Positions 6,849 to 45,308 of a DNA stretch of 64,000 nucleotides are shown here, one piece after another. Location: positions 62,001 through 126,000 of the forward strand of contig NZ_JALIQP010000008.1 in the NCBI RefSeq assembly GCF_023566055.1, written 5' to 3'. Below the pieces are notes generated by a model. The model was not told where the DNA came from, did not search any database, and saw only the letters and a program-made list of their open reading frames with translations. A program made the translations under genes and the position numbers. Within the stretch, counting starts at the first letter, position 1, and each line of letters starts with the position of its first letter. This DNA comes from Halosolutus amylolyticus (lineage in GTDB: Archaea > Halobacteriota > Halobacteria > Halobacteriales > Natrialbaceae).

Positions 6849-7202
6849 GCGGCCGATCCCTCCACAGCAGTGGATAGATCGGTCGGTACTCGGTATTCCA
6901 TACGAATTCGATCGGGTCAGACGTACTTTGTAAGCGATCTGTTTCCACCGTCTCGTGCGGTGGGCGCAGATGCCGCCGATCCTCGTCGACCGGAAGATGC
7001 GGGATAGGGTCGCGTTACGATCGGGAACGGTCCGCCTATAGGCCGAATGGCCGACGAATCTGCGAAGGGGCGAGTTTCCTGTCTCCTGATCGAACCGGCC
7101 CGAGTCGCTGGTCTGACCGGTCTCGATGGCTGACTCGCGCCGTGACTCTTGCTCGTAAACTGATCAATAACAAAGCCCGTACTGCGGGTCAATCCGGTAG
7201 TT
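6849..7202. other. divergent intergenic region between the two FemAB-like genes
   Basis: This 354-bp gap carries the promoters of both FemAB-like genes. The plus-strand element at 7167-7174 is described separately. On the minus side, AT-rich bases near 6920-6935 could serve copy A. I see no gene or repeat in it. Confidence 0.5.
7167..7174 (+). promoter_or_regulatory. ATAACAAA promoter-like element upstream of FemAB-like copy B
   Basis: ATAACAAA ends 28 nt before the ATG at 7203, a spacing that suits a TATA element of a leaderless transcript. It matches the elements at 657, 18520, 29409, 31481 and 31983. Confidence 0.45.
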
Positions 7203-8240
7203 ATGGAAACCGAAGAAATAACGCTCGACGAGTGGGAACGTGCCCTCCCGGCGTCGGGAACCGAGGTATTCCACGTACCCGCGGCGCTTTCCGTCGTCGA
7301 GAACCACACCGACGGAGACCTACGCCTGTTTGCTGGCTACAAGGGCCAGCAACCCGTCGCGTTGCTTCCGGTCTTCGTCAGTGAGCGATCGCTCGGTGCT
7401 CGAACGGTGGGCAAGACGGTCTTCTCGCCGCCGCTCGGTCTCGGAATCCCTCGACTCGGTCCCGTCATCGATCCGATGAGCCCGAAGCGACGAAAGCGAG
7501 AGCGGATCAACGGGGAGTTTGCGACCAGTGTGCTGGACTCGCTCGACGTTGATCGGCGAACGACGCTGTTCCGGATGGTGACCCCTCTCGACGATTCCGA
7601 TCCGCGACCGTACCGGTGGAACGGGCTGAACGTGACCCCGGAGTTCACCTACGTCGTCGACGTTTCGACGGGAGATCTCGAGGACGTGATGGGATCGTTC
7701 AGCAAGAGTCTCCGCAACGAAATGCGGCGCTGGGAGGAACTGGACTTGTCAATCGAGTGTGAGGGGATCGACGCTGCTCTCCGGGTGTACGAGGACGTCG
7801 TCGACCAGTACGCCGAATTCGACGAGTCTGCTCCGATGACCCGATCGTTCCTCCGCGAGTTCCTGACCGAACTGCCCGACGATCGGTGGCGGGTTTACGT
7901 CGCCCGGACGCCGGACGGCGAGTACGCGAGCGGCATCATCACGCTGTTCTCGGACGACATCGCGTACTACTGGCAGGGCGGTGTCGCCGCGTCGTACGAG
8001 AGTGTGAGCGTCAACAATCTCCTTCACCGGGCCATTCTCGAGGATCTCCTTTCGGATCCGGCGCTCGACACGATAACTGGCTACGATCTCGTCGGCGCGA
8101 ACACCGAACGGCTCTGTGATTACAAGGGGAAGTTCAACGGTGAGTTGCGCCAGTACTACGTCGTCGAGTCTGCGGGACTCGAAATGCAACTGGCGAAATC
8201 AGCGTATCGGACCGTTTCTGGATCATTGACCAAGGGGTGA
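7203..8240 (+). CDS. FemAB-like GNAT-fold acyltransferase (copy B)
   Basis: A 345-residue paralogue of the divergent gene at 5838. Shared landmarks are a YKGQQPVALLPVF strand, the FSPPLGLGIPRLGP block, WNGLNVTPEFTYVVDV, and the C-terminal YDLVGANTERLCDYKGKFN segment. Divergence between the copies is clear (different N termini and loops), so this is an old duplication or a pair with different specificity. The likely role is transfer of an acyl or aminoacyl group onto a surface glycan precursor, inferred from fold and context. A DUF1616 gene follows after 178 bp on the same strand. Confidence 0.78.
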   Translation: METEEITLDEWERALPASGTEVFHVPAALSVVENHTDGDLRLFAGYKGQQPVALLPVFVSERSLGARTVGKTVFSPPLGLGIPRLGPVIDPMSPKRRKRERINGEFATSVLDSLDVDRRTTLFRMVTPLDDSDPRPYRWNGLNVTPEFTYVVDVSTGDLEDVMGSFSKSLRNEMRRWEELDLSIECEGIDAALRVYEDVVDQYAEFDESAPMTRSFLREFLTELPDDRWRVYVARTPDGEYASGIITLFSDDIAYYWQGGVAASYESVSVNNLLHRAILEDLLSDPALDTITGYDLVGANTERLCDYKGKFNGELRQYYVVESAGLEMQLAKSAYRTVSGSLTKG

Positions 8241-12314: not shown

Positions 12315-12398
12315 GGGCAGGTGGTCCAGCGGAAGGACGCTCCTGGATGCGGGTTCCTCGCTCGGGAGAAGCCGGTGGTTCGAATCCACCCCTGTCCA
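12315..12398 (+). tRNA. tRNA-like gene with enlarged anticodon loop, possibly tRNA-Ala(CGC)
   Basis: The cloverleaf is almost perfect. The acceptor stem pairs 12315-12321 with 12391-12397 and includes a G3-U70 wobble, with A73 at 12398. U8 and G9 are present, the D arm is GTCC/GGAC with A14 and G18-G19, the variable loop is AAGCC, and the T arm is GGTGG/CCACC with loop TTCGAAT. The anticodon stem CTCCT (12340-12344) pairs with GGGAG (12364-12368) but encloses 19 nt instead of 7. Removing 12 nt so that U33 is kept leaves only anticodon CGC, which agrees with the alanine-type G3-U70. The inserted 12 nt are not at the canonical 37/38 intron site and position 37 would be U, so a pseudo-tRNA is also possible. 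Confidence 0.55.
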
Positions 12399-41320: not shown

Positions 41321-41329
41321 TATATATAC
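41321..41329 (+). promoter_or_regulatory. TATA box upstream of the structured leader
   Basis: TATATATAC is the best TATA match in the window. With normal archaeal spacing, transcription would begin near 41347-41355, so the message would carry a leader of about 115-120 nt before the ATG at 41470, long for a haloarchaeon. Confidence 0.7.
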
Positions 41330-41362
41330 GCCCCTCCGTGTCGCCCGTTCTGGTACCCTACT

Positions 41363-41462
41363 TCAGGGGACTCAGCCTTCGCTTGGCCCGAAGGATCGTG
41401 ACGCGGTGTGGCCGCGTCGTGGGGGGATCACCTCGCGCTGACTGTCCCCTGATCAGGGGGTG
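41363..41462 (+). promoter_or_regulatory. structured 5' leader with two exclusive folds, possible riboswitch-like control
   Basis: Bases 41363-41371 pair perfectly over 9 bp with 41444-41452, enclosing two more hairpins: 41376-41394 (6-bp stem CCTTCG/CGAAGG) and 41400-41418 (7-bp stem GACGCGG/CCGCGTC). In the alternative state 41446-41450 pairs with 41455-41459 around a GATC loop. That second hairpin contains the Shine-Dalgarno-like AGGGGGTG (41455-41462), which ends 7 nt before the ATG. So pairing with the distal strand would free the ribosome site and the local hairpin would hide it. All pairings are seen directly; regulation and any ligand are inference. Confidence 0.55.
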
Positions 41463-41469
41463 GAAACCT

Positions 41470-43101
41470 ATGACGGAACAACCAAATTCGAATCCGGTTT
41501 CGAGGCGAAACGTTCTGGGGGCACTCGGCGCGATCGGCGTCGGTGGCGCTCTCGCAGGTGCAGGTACGAGTGCGTTCTTCAGTGATAAAGAGACGTTCGA
41601 GGGCAACGAACTCGTTGCCGGCGAACTCGATCTCAAACTCGACTGGGAAGAACACTACAGTGACTGGAGCGAAGACGAACTGAAGGACGTCGGAGACTGG
41701 AGTATGGAGCCAGGTGATGGTCTCTTTGGCTTCCCTTCGACTGCGCCGACTGCGGAACAGTCCGTGTTCGTCGAGAACGAACAACAGTTCATGAAAAACA
41801 CCGCCATCGAGGCATTTCCGGATCAAACAAAGACGACGAACGTTGAAACAGCGATCGAGAAAGATCACTACGACGCTCAGCGCCAGGATCTGGACGACGA
41901 AATCTGTGACCTGAAGGCAGATCTCGATTATGTGCTGAGCCATCCCTATCGAACGCGTGGGACCTTCGGCGGTGATCCGAACCCACAGACCACCAAGCCC
42001 GGGGATCCGCTCATCAACATCTCGGACGTGAAGCCGGGTGACTTCGGCGAGCTGACGCTGAGCTTCCACCTCTGTGGAAACCCAGGCTACGTCTGGCTGA
42101 CCGGAAATCTCGTCGATGCGAACGAGAACGGGCATACCGAACCCGAGCGCAAAGACCCCGACGAAATTACCGACGACGACCCCGACGTCGACGGCGAGTA
42201 CGTCGAACTCCTGGACGAGATCAGGGCGTCGTTCTGGTACGACACCGGGATCGATGGCGAGTACGGCGCTGACCTGGACGACAAGGACCTCGGGGAGGGA
42301 AGCAACATTTTTGCGACTACCGGCGAGTCACTCCTTCCGCTTAGCGGGTCGCTCCGAAGCGTCCTCAGGGCACTCGAAAACGAAATGTTCCTCCTCGATC
42401 CGAAGCCCGTCTCGAACGGTGAGGACAAAAACGGTGGCAACGATGGAGACACTGTCCGGAAGGTTTCAGGATGGATCGACGAAGATACCGACGGAATAGA
42501 CGAGACCATCGTCACTGGTACCAACGATCGGTTCGGTGGTGCGAGAAACTACCAGTGCGCCGACTACGAGGAGCGCCTCGAGCGGTTCGAGCCCGGAAAC
42601 ATCGTCGGATCGGAGGTACTCAACCCGGACAATGCACCGATCGAACCCGGGATGGAATACGGTGGCTGTACCACGATTACTGTCGATTCCGTTGATCCCG
42701 ATGACGAAAATGGGAATATCACCCTCTCGTCGGACGGGCCCGTTATCATCGTCAGTGTGAAGGGTGGACCCAACGGCGAGCAGGTCTACGTGTTCGACGA
42801 ACCAGTCGTCCTCGATGGTGCGGAGTTTACGACTCCTGGTGATCACGGAATCAGTAACGTCGACGTGTGCTGTTTGCTCGACGGTGACGACGGTGATAAC
42901 GGCCACGATAACGGTAAGCGGCGGTGCTTCGAGAATTCGACGACGGCGTATATCGGCTTCGAATGGTGGCTCCCGGTCGACCACGCCAACGAGATTCAGG
43001 GCGATTCCGTCGCGTTCGACATCGGCTTCTACACCGAACAGTGCCGTCACAACGACGGTTCAGGGATGGATCGTGAGGAGAAGTCTGATCAACCGACGTA
43101 A
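41470..43101 (+). CDS. SipW-dependent-type secreted protein (TasA/camelysin-like signal)
   Basis: A 543-residue protein from ATG 41470. The signal region SRRNVLGALGAIGVGGALAG (also twin-arginine-like) is followed by TSAFFSDKETFEGNELVAG, the motif of substrates cut by SipW-type signal peptidases. Residues about 50-540 are an acidic beta-rich ectodomain with four or more paired cysteines in the second half and Asp/Asn-rich linkers. Proteins with this signal include TasA fibre proteins. A SipW-like peptidase lies at 44026 on the facing operon. The structured leader suggests post-transcriptional control. Confidence 0.8.
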   Translation: MTEQPNSNPVSRRNVLGALGAIGVGGALAGAGTSAFFSDKETFEGNELVAGELDLKLDWEEHYSDWSEDELKDVGDWSMEPGDGLFGFPSTAPTAEQSVFVENEQQFMKNTAIEAFPDQTKTTNVETAIEKDHYDAQRQDLDDEICDLKADLDYVLSHPYRTRGTFGGDPNPQTTKPGDPLINISDVKPGDFGELTLSFHLCGNPGYVWLTGNLVDANENGHTEPERKDPDEITDDDPDVDGEYVELLDEIRASFWYDTGIDGEYGADLDDKDLGEGSNIFATTGESLLPLSGSLRSVLRALENEMFLLDPKPVSNGEDKNGGNDGDTVRKVSGWIDEDTDGIDETIVTGTNDRFGGARNYQCADYEERLERFEPGNIVGSEVLNPDNAPIEPGMEYGGCTTITVDSVDPDDENGNITLSSDGPVIIVSVKGGPNGEQVYVFDEPVVLDGAEFTTPGDHGISNVDVCCLLDGDDGDNGHDNGKRRCFENSTTAYIGFEWWLPVDHANEIQGDSVAFDIGFYTEQCRHNDGSGMDREEKSDQPT

Positions 43102-43444: not shown

Positions 43445-44029
43445 TTAGTTCCCGCTGGTTTCGTTCTCCGACTCGGTTGCGTTTTCCTCGTCGGGAATCT
43501 CCTCGTCAGTTCCGTCGGAGACGTTATCGCTGCCGGTCGTTTCGTTGGTCGTTCCGGTCTCGTTACCCGTTTCGGATACGTTCAGAGCCCCCTCAGTCTC
43601 GGTGTCGTTTTCTGCGATCGTCAGGGTACCCGACGCTGTCTCGTTTTCGACGGTGACGGACCAGTTGAGTTCGTCGGCTTCGGACGTATCGAATCCGTAA
43701 TTCGCGTTCCACGACTGGTTCCCGTCGAGTGTGACGCTGTCCGCTTCGACAGGTTCGTTGTGGACGACGATTTCGTACTCGGTGACCGTCGGCCTGGAGC
43801 CGTCGTTCGCGAGGGTGACCTCGAGCGTGGCGTTCTCGCTCGCGTTGACCCGGTCGGGCGCGTCCACCTCGAACGCGGTCGGGCCCCACTCGGCGGCGCC
43901 GATACCGTTGTCCTCGAACGTACTCGCGTCCGAGAAGAACCCTGCCGTCGGCGCGATCGGAACGGCGGCGGCCGTCGCACCCAGGATCGCAATCGCCGCG
44001 ACGAGCCACACGACGCGCGATCGAGTCAT
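43445..44029 (-). CDS. small SipW-dependent-type secreted protein
   Basis: A 194-residue protein: hydrophobic N terminus (WLVAAIAILGATAAAV), then TAGFFSDASTFEDNGIGA, a SipW-type cleavage region. The ectodomain (about 55-140) is one CARDB/Ig-like beta domain (LEVTLANDGSRPTVTEYEIVVHN). It ends in a Thr/Asn/Glu/Ser-rich tail with several N-E-T and N-V-S sequons. The start overlaps the signal peptidase stop as ATGA, so substrate and peptidase are co-translated. The reading frame continues past the stop for 33 more codons (see 43343). Confidence 0.8.
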   Translation of the reverse strand: MTRSRVVWLVAAIAILGATAAAVPIAPTAGFFSDASTFEDNGIGAAEWGPTAFEVDAPDRVNASENATLEVTLANDGSRPTVTEYEIVVHNEPVEADSVTLDGNQSWNANYGFDTSEADELNWSVTVENETASGTLTIAENDTETEGALNVSETGNETGTTNETTGSDNVSDGTDEEIPDEENATESENETSGN

Positions 44030-44718
44030 CGGTCGCCCTCCGTCGTCGCGGCATCGTTCCGCGCGTTTCCGGGCTCAGGAGCGACGTCGCTCGGAGCGTC
44101 GTCGGCCGACTCCAGTGCGGGGGTCTCGATCGACTCACCCTCGATCGCGGGCTGGTCGTCGTCGCTGCCGTCCGGACCGAGGATCCCCTCCAGAACGCGA
44201 TCGACGGTCGGCGCATAGCCGAACTCCCGGAGCAGTTGCCAGCTTCCGGACGCGACGAGGAACAGTCCGGGCGCGATCACGAGCGCGAAGAGCCCGAGAC
44301 TCGATCGGGCGAACAGCAGGAGGTAGCCGAGGTACGGAACGTGGACGTGGAGCGTCCCCTGGGCGTACTCGGCCGGGACGTAGCCCTCGTCAGGGTCCTC
44401 GTTCGCGTCACCTTTCGTTCGGAAGTATCGCTCGCCGTTCTCCTCGCGGACCTCGACGACACGATGCGTGAGGGTCCCGCCGTCGGTACCGCTCCCGTCC
44501 TGGAACGTGACCACGTCGCCGGACTCGATCGCGTCGGGGTCGACCTCCTGCGTGATGATGACGTCGCCCGATTCGATCGTCGGCTGCATGCTGTCGGAGG
44601 TGACGATGTAGACGTCGTCGCCGCCGACGAGGCCCGGGAACGTAACGAGCCCGACGAACACGAACAGGGCCGCGAGAACGGTCCCCGCGGCGGCGTACCA
44701 GACGGTCGTCCGGTTCAT
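44026..44718 (-). CDS. signal peptidase I, SipW/archaeal type
   Basis: A 230-residue protein from ATG 44718. It has an N-terminal membrane anchor (about 7-30), the catalytic serine in VTSDSMQPTI near residue 42, THRVVEV with the histidine that replaces the bacterial lysine, and TKGDANEDPD with the conserved Asp. Another hydrophobic segment (about 130-165) and an acidic tail follow. Its position between a DUF7344 regulator and a SipW-type substrate, with ATGA overlaps on both sides, marks it as a dedicated peptidase rather than the general one. Confidence 0.86.
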   Translation of the reverse strand: MNRTTVWYAAAGTVLAALFVFVGLVTFPGLVGGDDVYIVTSDSMQPTIESGDVIITQEVDPDAIESGDVVTFQDGSGTDGGTLTHRVVEVREENGERYFRTKGDANEDPDEGYVPAEYAQGTLHVHVPYLGYLLLFARSSLGLFALVIAPGLFLVASGSWQLLREFGYAPTVDRVLEGILGPDGSDDDQPAIEGESIETPALESADDAPSDVAPEPGNARNDAATTEGDR

Positions 44719-45308
44719 GGCTCCACCTCCGCGACCGGCGGCTCGGAGTCGCCGCCGAGTCGCATCCGCCGATCGTACCTGACGTGAAACGCGGCGGAGA
44801 TCGTAAAGAGCAGCGTGACGAGCAACGCCCCGCCGAGCGGAGCGACGAACGAAAACGGCGGCAGTCCGATCCACAGCGTCCCCACGAACCCGAGACTGAG
44901 GATTCCAAGTCCGGCATAGTACTTGCTCCACGGGATGTCCTCGTGCGGAACGACGTCGAGGTAGACCTCCAGTTCGGCGGCCGCGTCGGTGAGCGCGATC
45001 GTCCCACGGTGCTCCTCGAAGGTAACGATCCCCCCGTCGTCCAGTTTTGGCAGGTGTGACTGCCGAAGCGCGGTGTACACGCGCATCCGCTGTTCGTAGG
45101 TCACCACCTCTGGCGCCACTTCGTTCTCCCAGGCGGCGACCTGCGTGACGAGGTCCCGGAGTTCGACCGCGCCGCCTCGTTGTTTGAGACAGTGAATGAC
45201 GTATCGCCGCCGGCGACAGCTCAACATCTCGAACGCGACCTCCTGTGACAGCGTGGACGCGTCGTCCGCGGAATCGCCGACGAGGTGTGAAACGCTCGCC
45301 GACTTCAT
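44715..45308 (-). CDS. DUF7344 winged-helix membrane protein, first gene of the SipW operon
   Basis: A 197-residue protein. The DUF7344 domain (about 20-125) includes LSCRRRRYVIHCLKQRGG, VTQVAAWENEVAPEVV and ALRQSHLPKLDDGGIVTF. Two hydrophobic segments (about 128-170) and a basic/acidic tail follow. Its stop overlaps the signal peptidase start as ATGA. The tight coupling suggests that it controls this operon or senses surface assembly, though no direct evidence exists. The region upstream is AT-rich with no clear operator. Confidence 0.82.
   Translation of the reverse strand: MKSASVSHLVGDSADDASTLSQEVAFEMLSCRRRRYVIHCLKQRGGAVELRDLVTQVAAWENEVAPEVVTYEQRMRVYTALRQSHLPKLDDGGIVTFEEHRGTIALTDAAAELEVYLDVVPHEDIPWSKYYAGLGILSLGFVGTLWIGLPPFSFVAPLGGALLVTLLFTISAAFHVRYDRRMRLGGDSEPPVAEVEP

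Follow-up and report, generated by a model that had tools for sequence, protein, structure and literature searches.

Polycistronic transcripts can be punctuated by tRNAs, those of mitochondria being an example. Among the described systems closest to the one analysed here is the haloarchaeal t-element upstream of 5S rRNA (Hoelzle et al, 2008, 2012, as cited in PMC4326828 and PMC3296008), in which a ~7-bp acceptor-like helix is stacked on a T-arm with a T-loop. In H. volcanii both RNase P and tRNase Z act on t-elements in vivo, and tRNase Z cuts the one upstream of 5S rRNA, making the 5′ end of 5S (PMC4326828, PMC3296008). In what these two papers report on the t-element, cleavage by tRNase Z and RNase P is shown for the 5S element only. 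Two further systems bear on the locus. SD-sequestering translational riboswitches have leaders with alternative pairings near the Shine-Dalgarno sequence (SD), and the fluoride riboswitch is the only riboswitch shown experimentally in archaea according to a 2021 paper (PMC8241225). The TasA/camelysin–SipW systems of Bacillus pair a SipW-type signal peptide with a nearby SipW-like signal peptidase.

The window, a stretch of 64,000 nucleotides from Halosolutus amylolyticus, resembles the Bacillus systems in both of these protein features, though here they belong to archaeal operons with an RNA element in leaders and spacers. This SipW element shares with the 5S t-element its two stacked helices, its T-loop and a conserved GG in the connecting strand; a single model, R1, finds both, and both end 1–2 nt short of the RNA that is, or in the SipW case would be, set free. 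It differs in preceding SipW-type protein genes, mostly inside operons, in being followed by an SD hairpin where the 5S element has 5S rRNA, and in being a putative cleavage site, whereas the 5S element is an established one. As with tRNA punctuation, tRNA-shaped elements lie between coding regions, but the SipW elements are not tRNA genes and have no anticodon arm. The leader in the window differs from the 5S t-element in the loss of the T-loop and, although it shares alternative pairings near the SD with translational riboswitches, it shows no sign of a ligand, no clearly conserved aptamer and no balanced energies.

Results

The SipW locus and its neighbourhood

The features of the locus are as follows.

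41321..41329 (+), TATA box TATATATAC, predicted promoter of the leader
41363..41371 (+), 5′ strand of the closing helix, TCAGGGGAC, exact reverse complement of 41444–41452
41372..41376 (+), 5′ strand of the inner helix, TCAGC, in the minimum-energy fold; partner GCTGA at 41437–41441
41376..41394 (+), hairpin CCTTCG-CTTGGCC-CGAAGG, perfect stem, read in the sequence and in the fold
41400..41418 (+), hairpin GACGCGG-TGTGG-CCGCGTC, perfect stem, read in the sequence and in the fold
41419..41436 (+), third hairpin, GTGGGG-GGATCA-CCTCGC, in the minimum-energy fold
41437..41441 (+), 3′ strand of the inner helix, GCTGA, in the minimum-energy fold
41442..41463 (+), SD hairpin of the alternative fold, CTGTCCCCT-GATC-AGGGGGTGG, arms 41442–41450 and 41455–41463
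41444..41452 (+), 3′ strand of the closing helix, GTCCCCTGA, overlapping the 5′ arm of the SD hairpin
41455..41462 (+), Shine-Dalgarno-like sequence AGGGGGTG, 7 nt 5′ of the ATG at 41470
41470..43101 (+), SipW-type secreted protein of 543 residues; homologues support the start
43445..44029 (−), open reading frame for a 194-residue secreted protein whose N-terminus is SipW-like; it overlaps the gene for the signal peptidase
44026..44931 (−), archaeal signal peptidase I, SipW-like

The earlier note had called the gene downstream of the leader SipW-type. This is correct: the TIGR04088 signal-peptide domain scores 29.1 bits, above the cut-off of 19 used for the class, and there is a weak match to Pfam Peptidase_M73/camelysin (23.1 bits against a cut-off of 22.5). 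The 194-residue protein has no match in Pfam or NCBIfam. The signal peptidase matches TIGR02228 with 101.5 bits and scores 95.4 bits against the SipW model NF046067, under its cut-off of 190; it is the probable partner of the SipW-type proteins, and its true start may lie downstream of the start of the open reading frame.

A DUF7344 protein at 44715–45308 (−) overlaps the signal peptidase reading frame, and a DUF7344-like reading frame, recognised by eye, adjoins the second SipW cluster of the same genome (L179, positions 7189–7737). This second cluster (G000:C3:520000–530000) also has a signal peptidase and carries a t-element at 524390–524432 (−), between its genes. The sole tRNA found in the window is a tRNA-Ile (GAT) gene at 12315–12398 (+), and T-loop-like patterns elsewhere in the window consist of this tRNA and two isolated matches near the chance level.

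Folding of the leader

The TATA box that the earlier note had placed at 41321–41329 is present, and from the usual archaeal TATA spacing transcription would start near 41350. The sequence GTGTATATATAC is invariant across ten other promoter-driven SipW leaders (alignment A4). The note had gone on to describe a closing helix around two hairpins, forming a three-helix junction, and an alternative pairing that would hide the ribosome site. The pairings can be read directly in the sequence: the strands of the 9-bp closing helix are exact reverse complements, the stems CCTTCG/CGAAGG and GACGCGG/CCGCGTC are perfect, the ribosome site lies 7 nt from the ATG, and CCCCT at 41446–41450 is able to pair with AGGGG at 41455–41459. 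As both folds use 41446–41450 they do exclude one another. The junction, on the other hand, is four-way in the minimum-energy fold, the third hairpin and the inner helix having been overlooked. The SD hairpin exists and is longer than had been noted, with the palindrome CCCCTGATCAGGGG (41446–41459) as its core.

The leader is more structured than chance would give, though modestly so. Its fold has a z of about −2.5 against dinucleotide shuffles, 2–4 of 200 shuffles being as good; the last 70 nt have a z of −2.4; and a perfect helix of at least 9 bp is present in 42 of 2000 shuffles.

The closing helix has a computed pair probability of 0.99998. Forcing the SD hairpin costs ~10 kcal/mol (−55.2 versus −65.5), values computed at 37 °C with standard-salt parameters and therefore rough in absolute terms for a haloarchaeon with molar salt. 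The SD is barely freed in the closing-helix fold, where 41457–41461 have an unpaired probability of 0.00–0.06, because the G-run pairs elsewhere. With this gap, and with the SD mostly paired either way, the computed energies are not those of an evenly poised switch, and the SD is not clearly freed in either fold; the bistability proposed in the earlier note is not supported at equilibrium.

These energies also bear on the idea of a riboswitch in which a ligand chooses between the closing helix and the SD hairpin and so turns translation on or off. The two exclusive pairings are real, the inner core (41372–41441) is retained in both folds and would make a plausible aptamer topology, and the z of the fold is in keeping with such a structure. 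Besides the energy gap and the SD paired in both folds, however, Rfam scans of the window and related loci matched no family to the leader or to the t-element-like element described below. In the covariation check that had been proposed for the three helices, 68.0% of cells were paired in relatives against 63.8% when shuffled, which in a poor and gappy alignment of 11 promoter-driven leaders gives no clear support. The closing helix as such was not seen in other leaders; related leaders keep another helix, which belongs to an acceptor/T-arm-like element absent from the window leader. A direct DNA search within the genus gave no match beyond the window's own genome. We consider a ligand-sensing riboswitch improbable.

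The third hairpin contains the 10-mer GGATCACCTC (41425–41434), which we take to be identical to the 3′ end of 16S rRNA, the anti-SD. It was rejected as an internal anti-SD: 0.24 occurrences per window are expected by chance, and the relatives in alignment A4 do not show it at the corresponding place.

A t-element-like structure upstream of SipW-type genes

Many homologous SipW-type genes share an element upstream. It combines a ~7-bp helix, for which GACCCAC/GTGGGTC is the typical sequence, with a connecting strand that has the conserved GG and a 6-bp arm that bears the loop TTCGAYT; the 3′ strand of this arm continues directly into the ~7-bp helix. With its acceptor-like helix and T-stem on a continuous 3′ strand, 13 pairs in all, the element is, judged by its sequence, the acceptor-plus-T-arm half of a tRNA. 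ARAGORN found no tRNA genes in the related loci, and the elements are therefore not tRNAs.

Fourteen SipW leaders (alignment A1), and no 5S sequences, went into the covariance model R1. The loop TTCGAYT, which fits the t-element pattern TTCRANY, occurs in 55 of 57 SipW elements, a constancy that is partly circular as the training elements were chosen by their T-loop. Across 89 distinct elements 94.7% of cells are paired against 81.8% when shuffled, in counts uncorrected for relatedness and on an alignment fitted to R1, which favours pairing. Changes on both sides are seen in 11 of the 13 pairs, none of 500 shuffles reached any of five measures, and versions in which the strands were slid collapse. 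The size of the effect makes it unlikely that kinship and the model-fitted alignment are the whole explanation.

R1 also finds elements upstream of 5S rRNA, ending 1–2 nt before the 5S start, including one in the window's own genome (L180, match at 1135–1177 and 5S at 1133–1012). These are the published haloarchaeal t-element. The GG in the junction is present in all 21 of the 5S elements and in 52 of 56 SipW elements.

A hairpin at the 3′ edge of the element

A stem of at least 4 bp begins 0–1 nt after the element in 53 of the 57 SipW elements (13 on average and 24 at most in shuffles), and in none of the 21 5S elements. It lies outside the R1 model. Its 3′ arm usually carries a G-run that serves as the SD, and the ATG follows ~18–30 nt 3′ of the element. 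The SD hairpin of the window leader is the positional equivalent of this hairpin. A long structured leader and an SD-holding hairpin, both of which the earlier note had stressed, are common to many SipW-type leaders, and the SD hairpin belongs to a trait that the family shares.

A few SipW leaders keep the stem with other bases (ACCTC/GAGGT and TGCCTC/GAGGCA), and one has the stem CCGCGCT/AGCGCGG with no G-run. Because the stem is kept through changed bases, and once in a leader lacking a G-run, these sequences hint that the hairpin itself may matter beyond masking the SD. The same changed stems, which preserve pairing, argue against CCCCTGATCAGGGG being a DNA operator, that is a 14-bp palindrome bound by a regulator with RNA pairing as a by-product. 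The palindrome is perfect and unexpected by chance in the window, but the equivalent repeats in relatives have varied, non-palindromic loops and the site is well downstream of the TATA box; we regard an operator as very unlikely indeed. The SD hairpin of the window leader could instead be a thermometer-like roadblock at the SD, tuned by temperature or salt and independent of t-element ancestry. The short loop and the position at the start codon would suit this, as would the first-gene leaders of other SipW operons, which also often have the SD in a stem, though the computed stability is very high and we think this explanation improbable.

Distribution of the element

Among 117 R1 matches examined, 57 directly precede SipW-type reading frames and 21 precede 5S; the remainder are other or unclassified, several of them lying at genes in SipW clusters that encode secreted proteins of other kinds. 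Of the 80 genes that pass the SipW model in 16 genomes, 40 have a t-element 20–170 nt upstream. When the genes are grouped by operon position, in classes assigned by mechanical sorting, 24 of the 25 internal genes whose spacer measures 45 nt or more have the element, as do none of the five with shorter spacers and 16 of the 50 others, which are mainly promoter-bearing first genes together with some misclassified internal ones.

Of 391 Halobacteria genomes, 160 have an R1 match; they belong to 47 genera, and some of the matches are 5S elements. Among 197 genomes sampled across the phylum there were 19 with a match, all within the window's order, and no match was found outside Halobacteria. Natronorubrum aibiense and Halorubrum ezzemoulense are examples in annotated records, and SipW t-elements are also present in Haloarchaeobius sp. 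FL176 (L124) and Halomicroarcula rubra (L123); relatives of the window organism in its family include N. aibiense and Haloarchaeobius sp. FL176, the latter already named.

The window leader as a probable relative of the element family

R1 does not match the window leader (41321–41470), and because of this and the absence of the T-loop we treat the leader as a probable derivative and not a member of the family. It has the promoter and layout of ten other promoter-driven SipW leaders, of which those at L019, L026 and L037 retain the t-element, and the Natronorubrum leaders show an intermediate stage of decay, with a decayed T-arm, GCTCGACTCCG, whose partner strand is missing. The window leader has hairpins at the T-arm position; its third hairpin aligns there with related leaders, but without a T-loop. 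The old acceptor helix could correspond to 41357–41362/41419–41424 or to 41372–41376/41437–41441, the inner helix, which is a candidate counterpart of P1 of the t-element. As two assignments are possible, descent from t-element leaders is something that we infer from position and layout. The leader is probably a decayed relative of the t-element family that has kept the SD hairpin.

It may instead be that the structure arose by drift, a GC-rich leader folding for no specific reason and the 9-bp helix being lineage-specific noise. The frequency of such helices in the shuffles would allow this, the structure is not clearly conserved in relatives, and promoter-driven SipW leaders without a t-element have an average z of only −1.5 with a wide spread. 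However, the last 70 nt stand out from shuffles, and the placement of the SD hairpin agrees with its conserved placement in the t-element family. Drift appears rather unlikely. Overall, we put at roughly 0.55 the probability that the window leader is a decayed relative of a family that has t-element cleavage signals together with an SD hairpin.

Discussion

The element family is a more interesting result than the switch. Its match to the 5S t-element and its position are the reasons for proposing that tRNase Z and RNase P may cut SipW transcripts at the t-elements. In canonical SipW t-elements the tRNase Z cut would fall immediately 3′ of the acceptor-like helix, and RNase P could cut 5′ of this helix. 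An operon transcript would thereby be divided between one SipW gene and the next, and the 5′ end of each downstream SipW mRNA would be a stable hairpin at the SD. It seems more probable than not that t-elements punctuate haloarchaeal operons of SipW-type (TasA/camelysin-like) proteins in this way, with tRNase Z and RNase P cutting between the genes, the resulting 5′-terminal hairpin protecting the mRNA and holding the SD, and tRNA-processing enzymes thereby setting the expression of surface-protein operons. In the window leader the cleavage signal would presumably have been lost along with the T-loop, and the stable fold and SD hairpin would most likely lower translation in a fixed way, with no switching by a ligand.

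If this is right, a signal known from the maturation of 5S rRNA also serves in cis, and widely, in haloarchaeal protein-coding operons, and mRNA maturation and relative expression in SipW operons depend on tRNA-processing enzymes. The natural elements and decayed versions such as the window leader form a test set for the function of structured leaders, a question that is set here in organisms where many mRNAs have no leader.

Five R1 matches end 1–4 nt before the ATG of a gene that is not SipW-type (L103:1198–1242, L086:1369–1410, L081:1501–1542, L105:1238–1275 (−) and L119:1276–1313), and a cut at these would yield nearly leaderless mRNAs. In Haloarchaeobius-type genomes (L055, L087, L088 and L092) t-elements also precede a family of small exported proteins with a hydrophobic N-terminus ending in ALALLQGTGA, which is possibly another SipW-type substrate.
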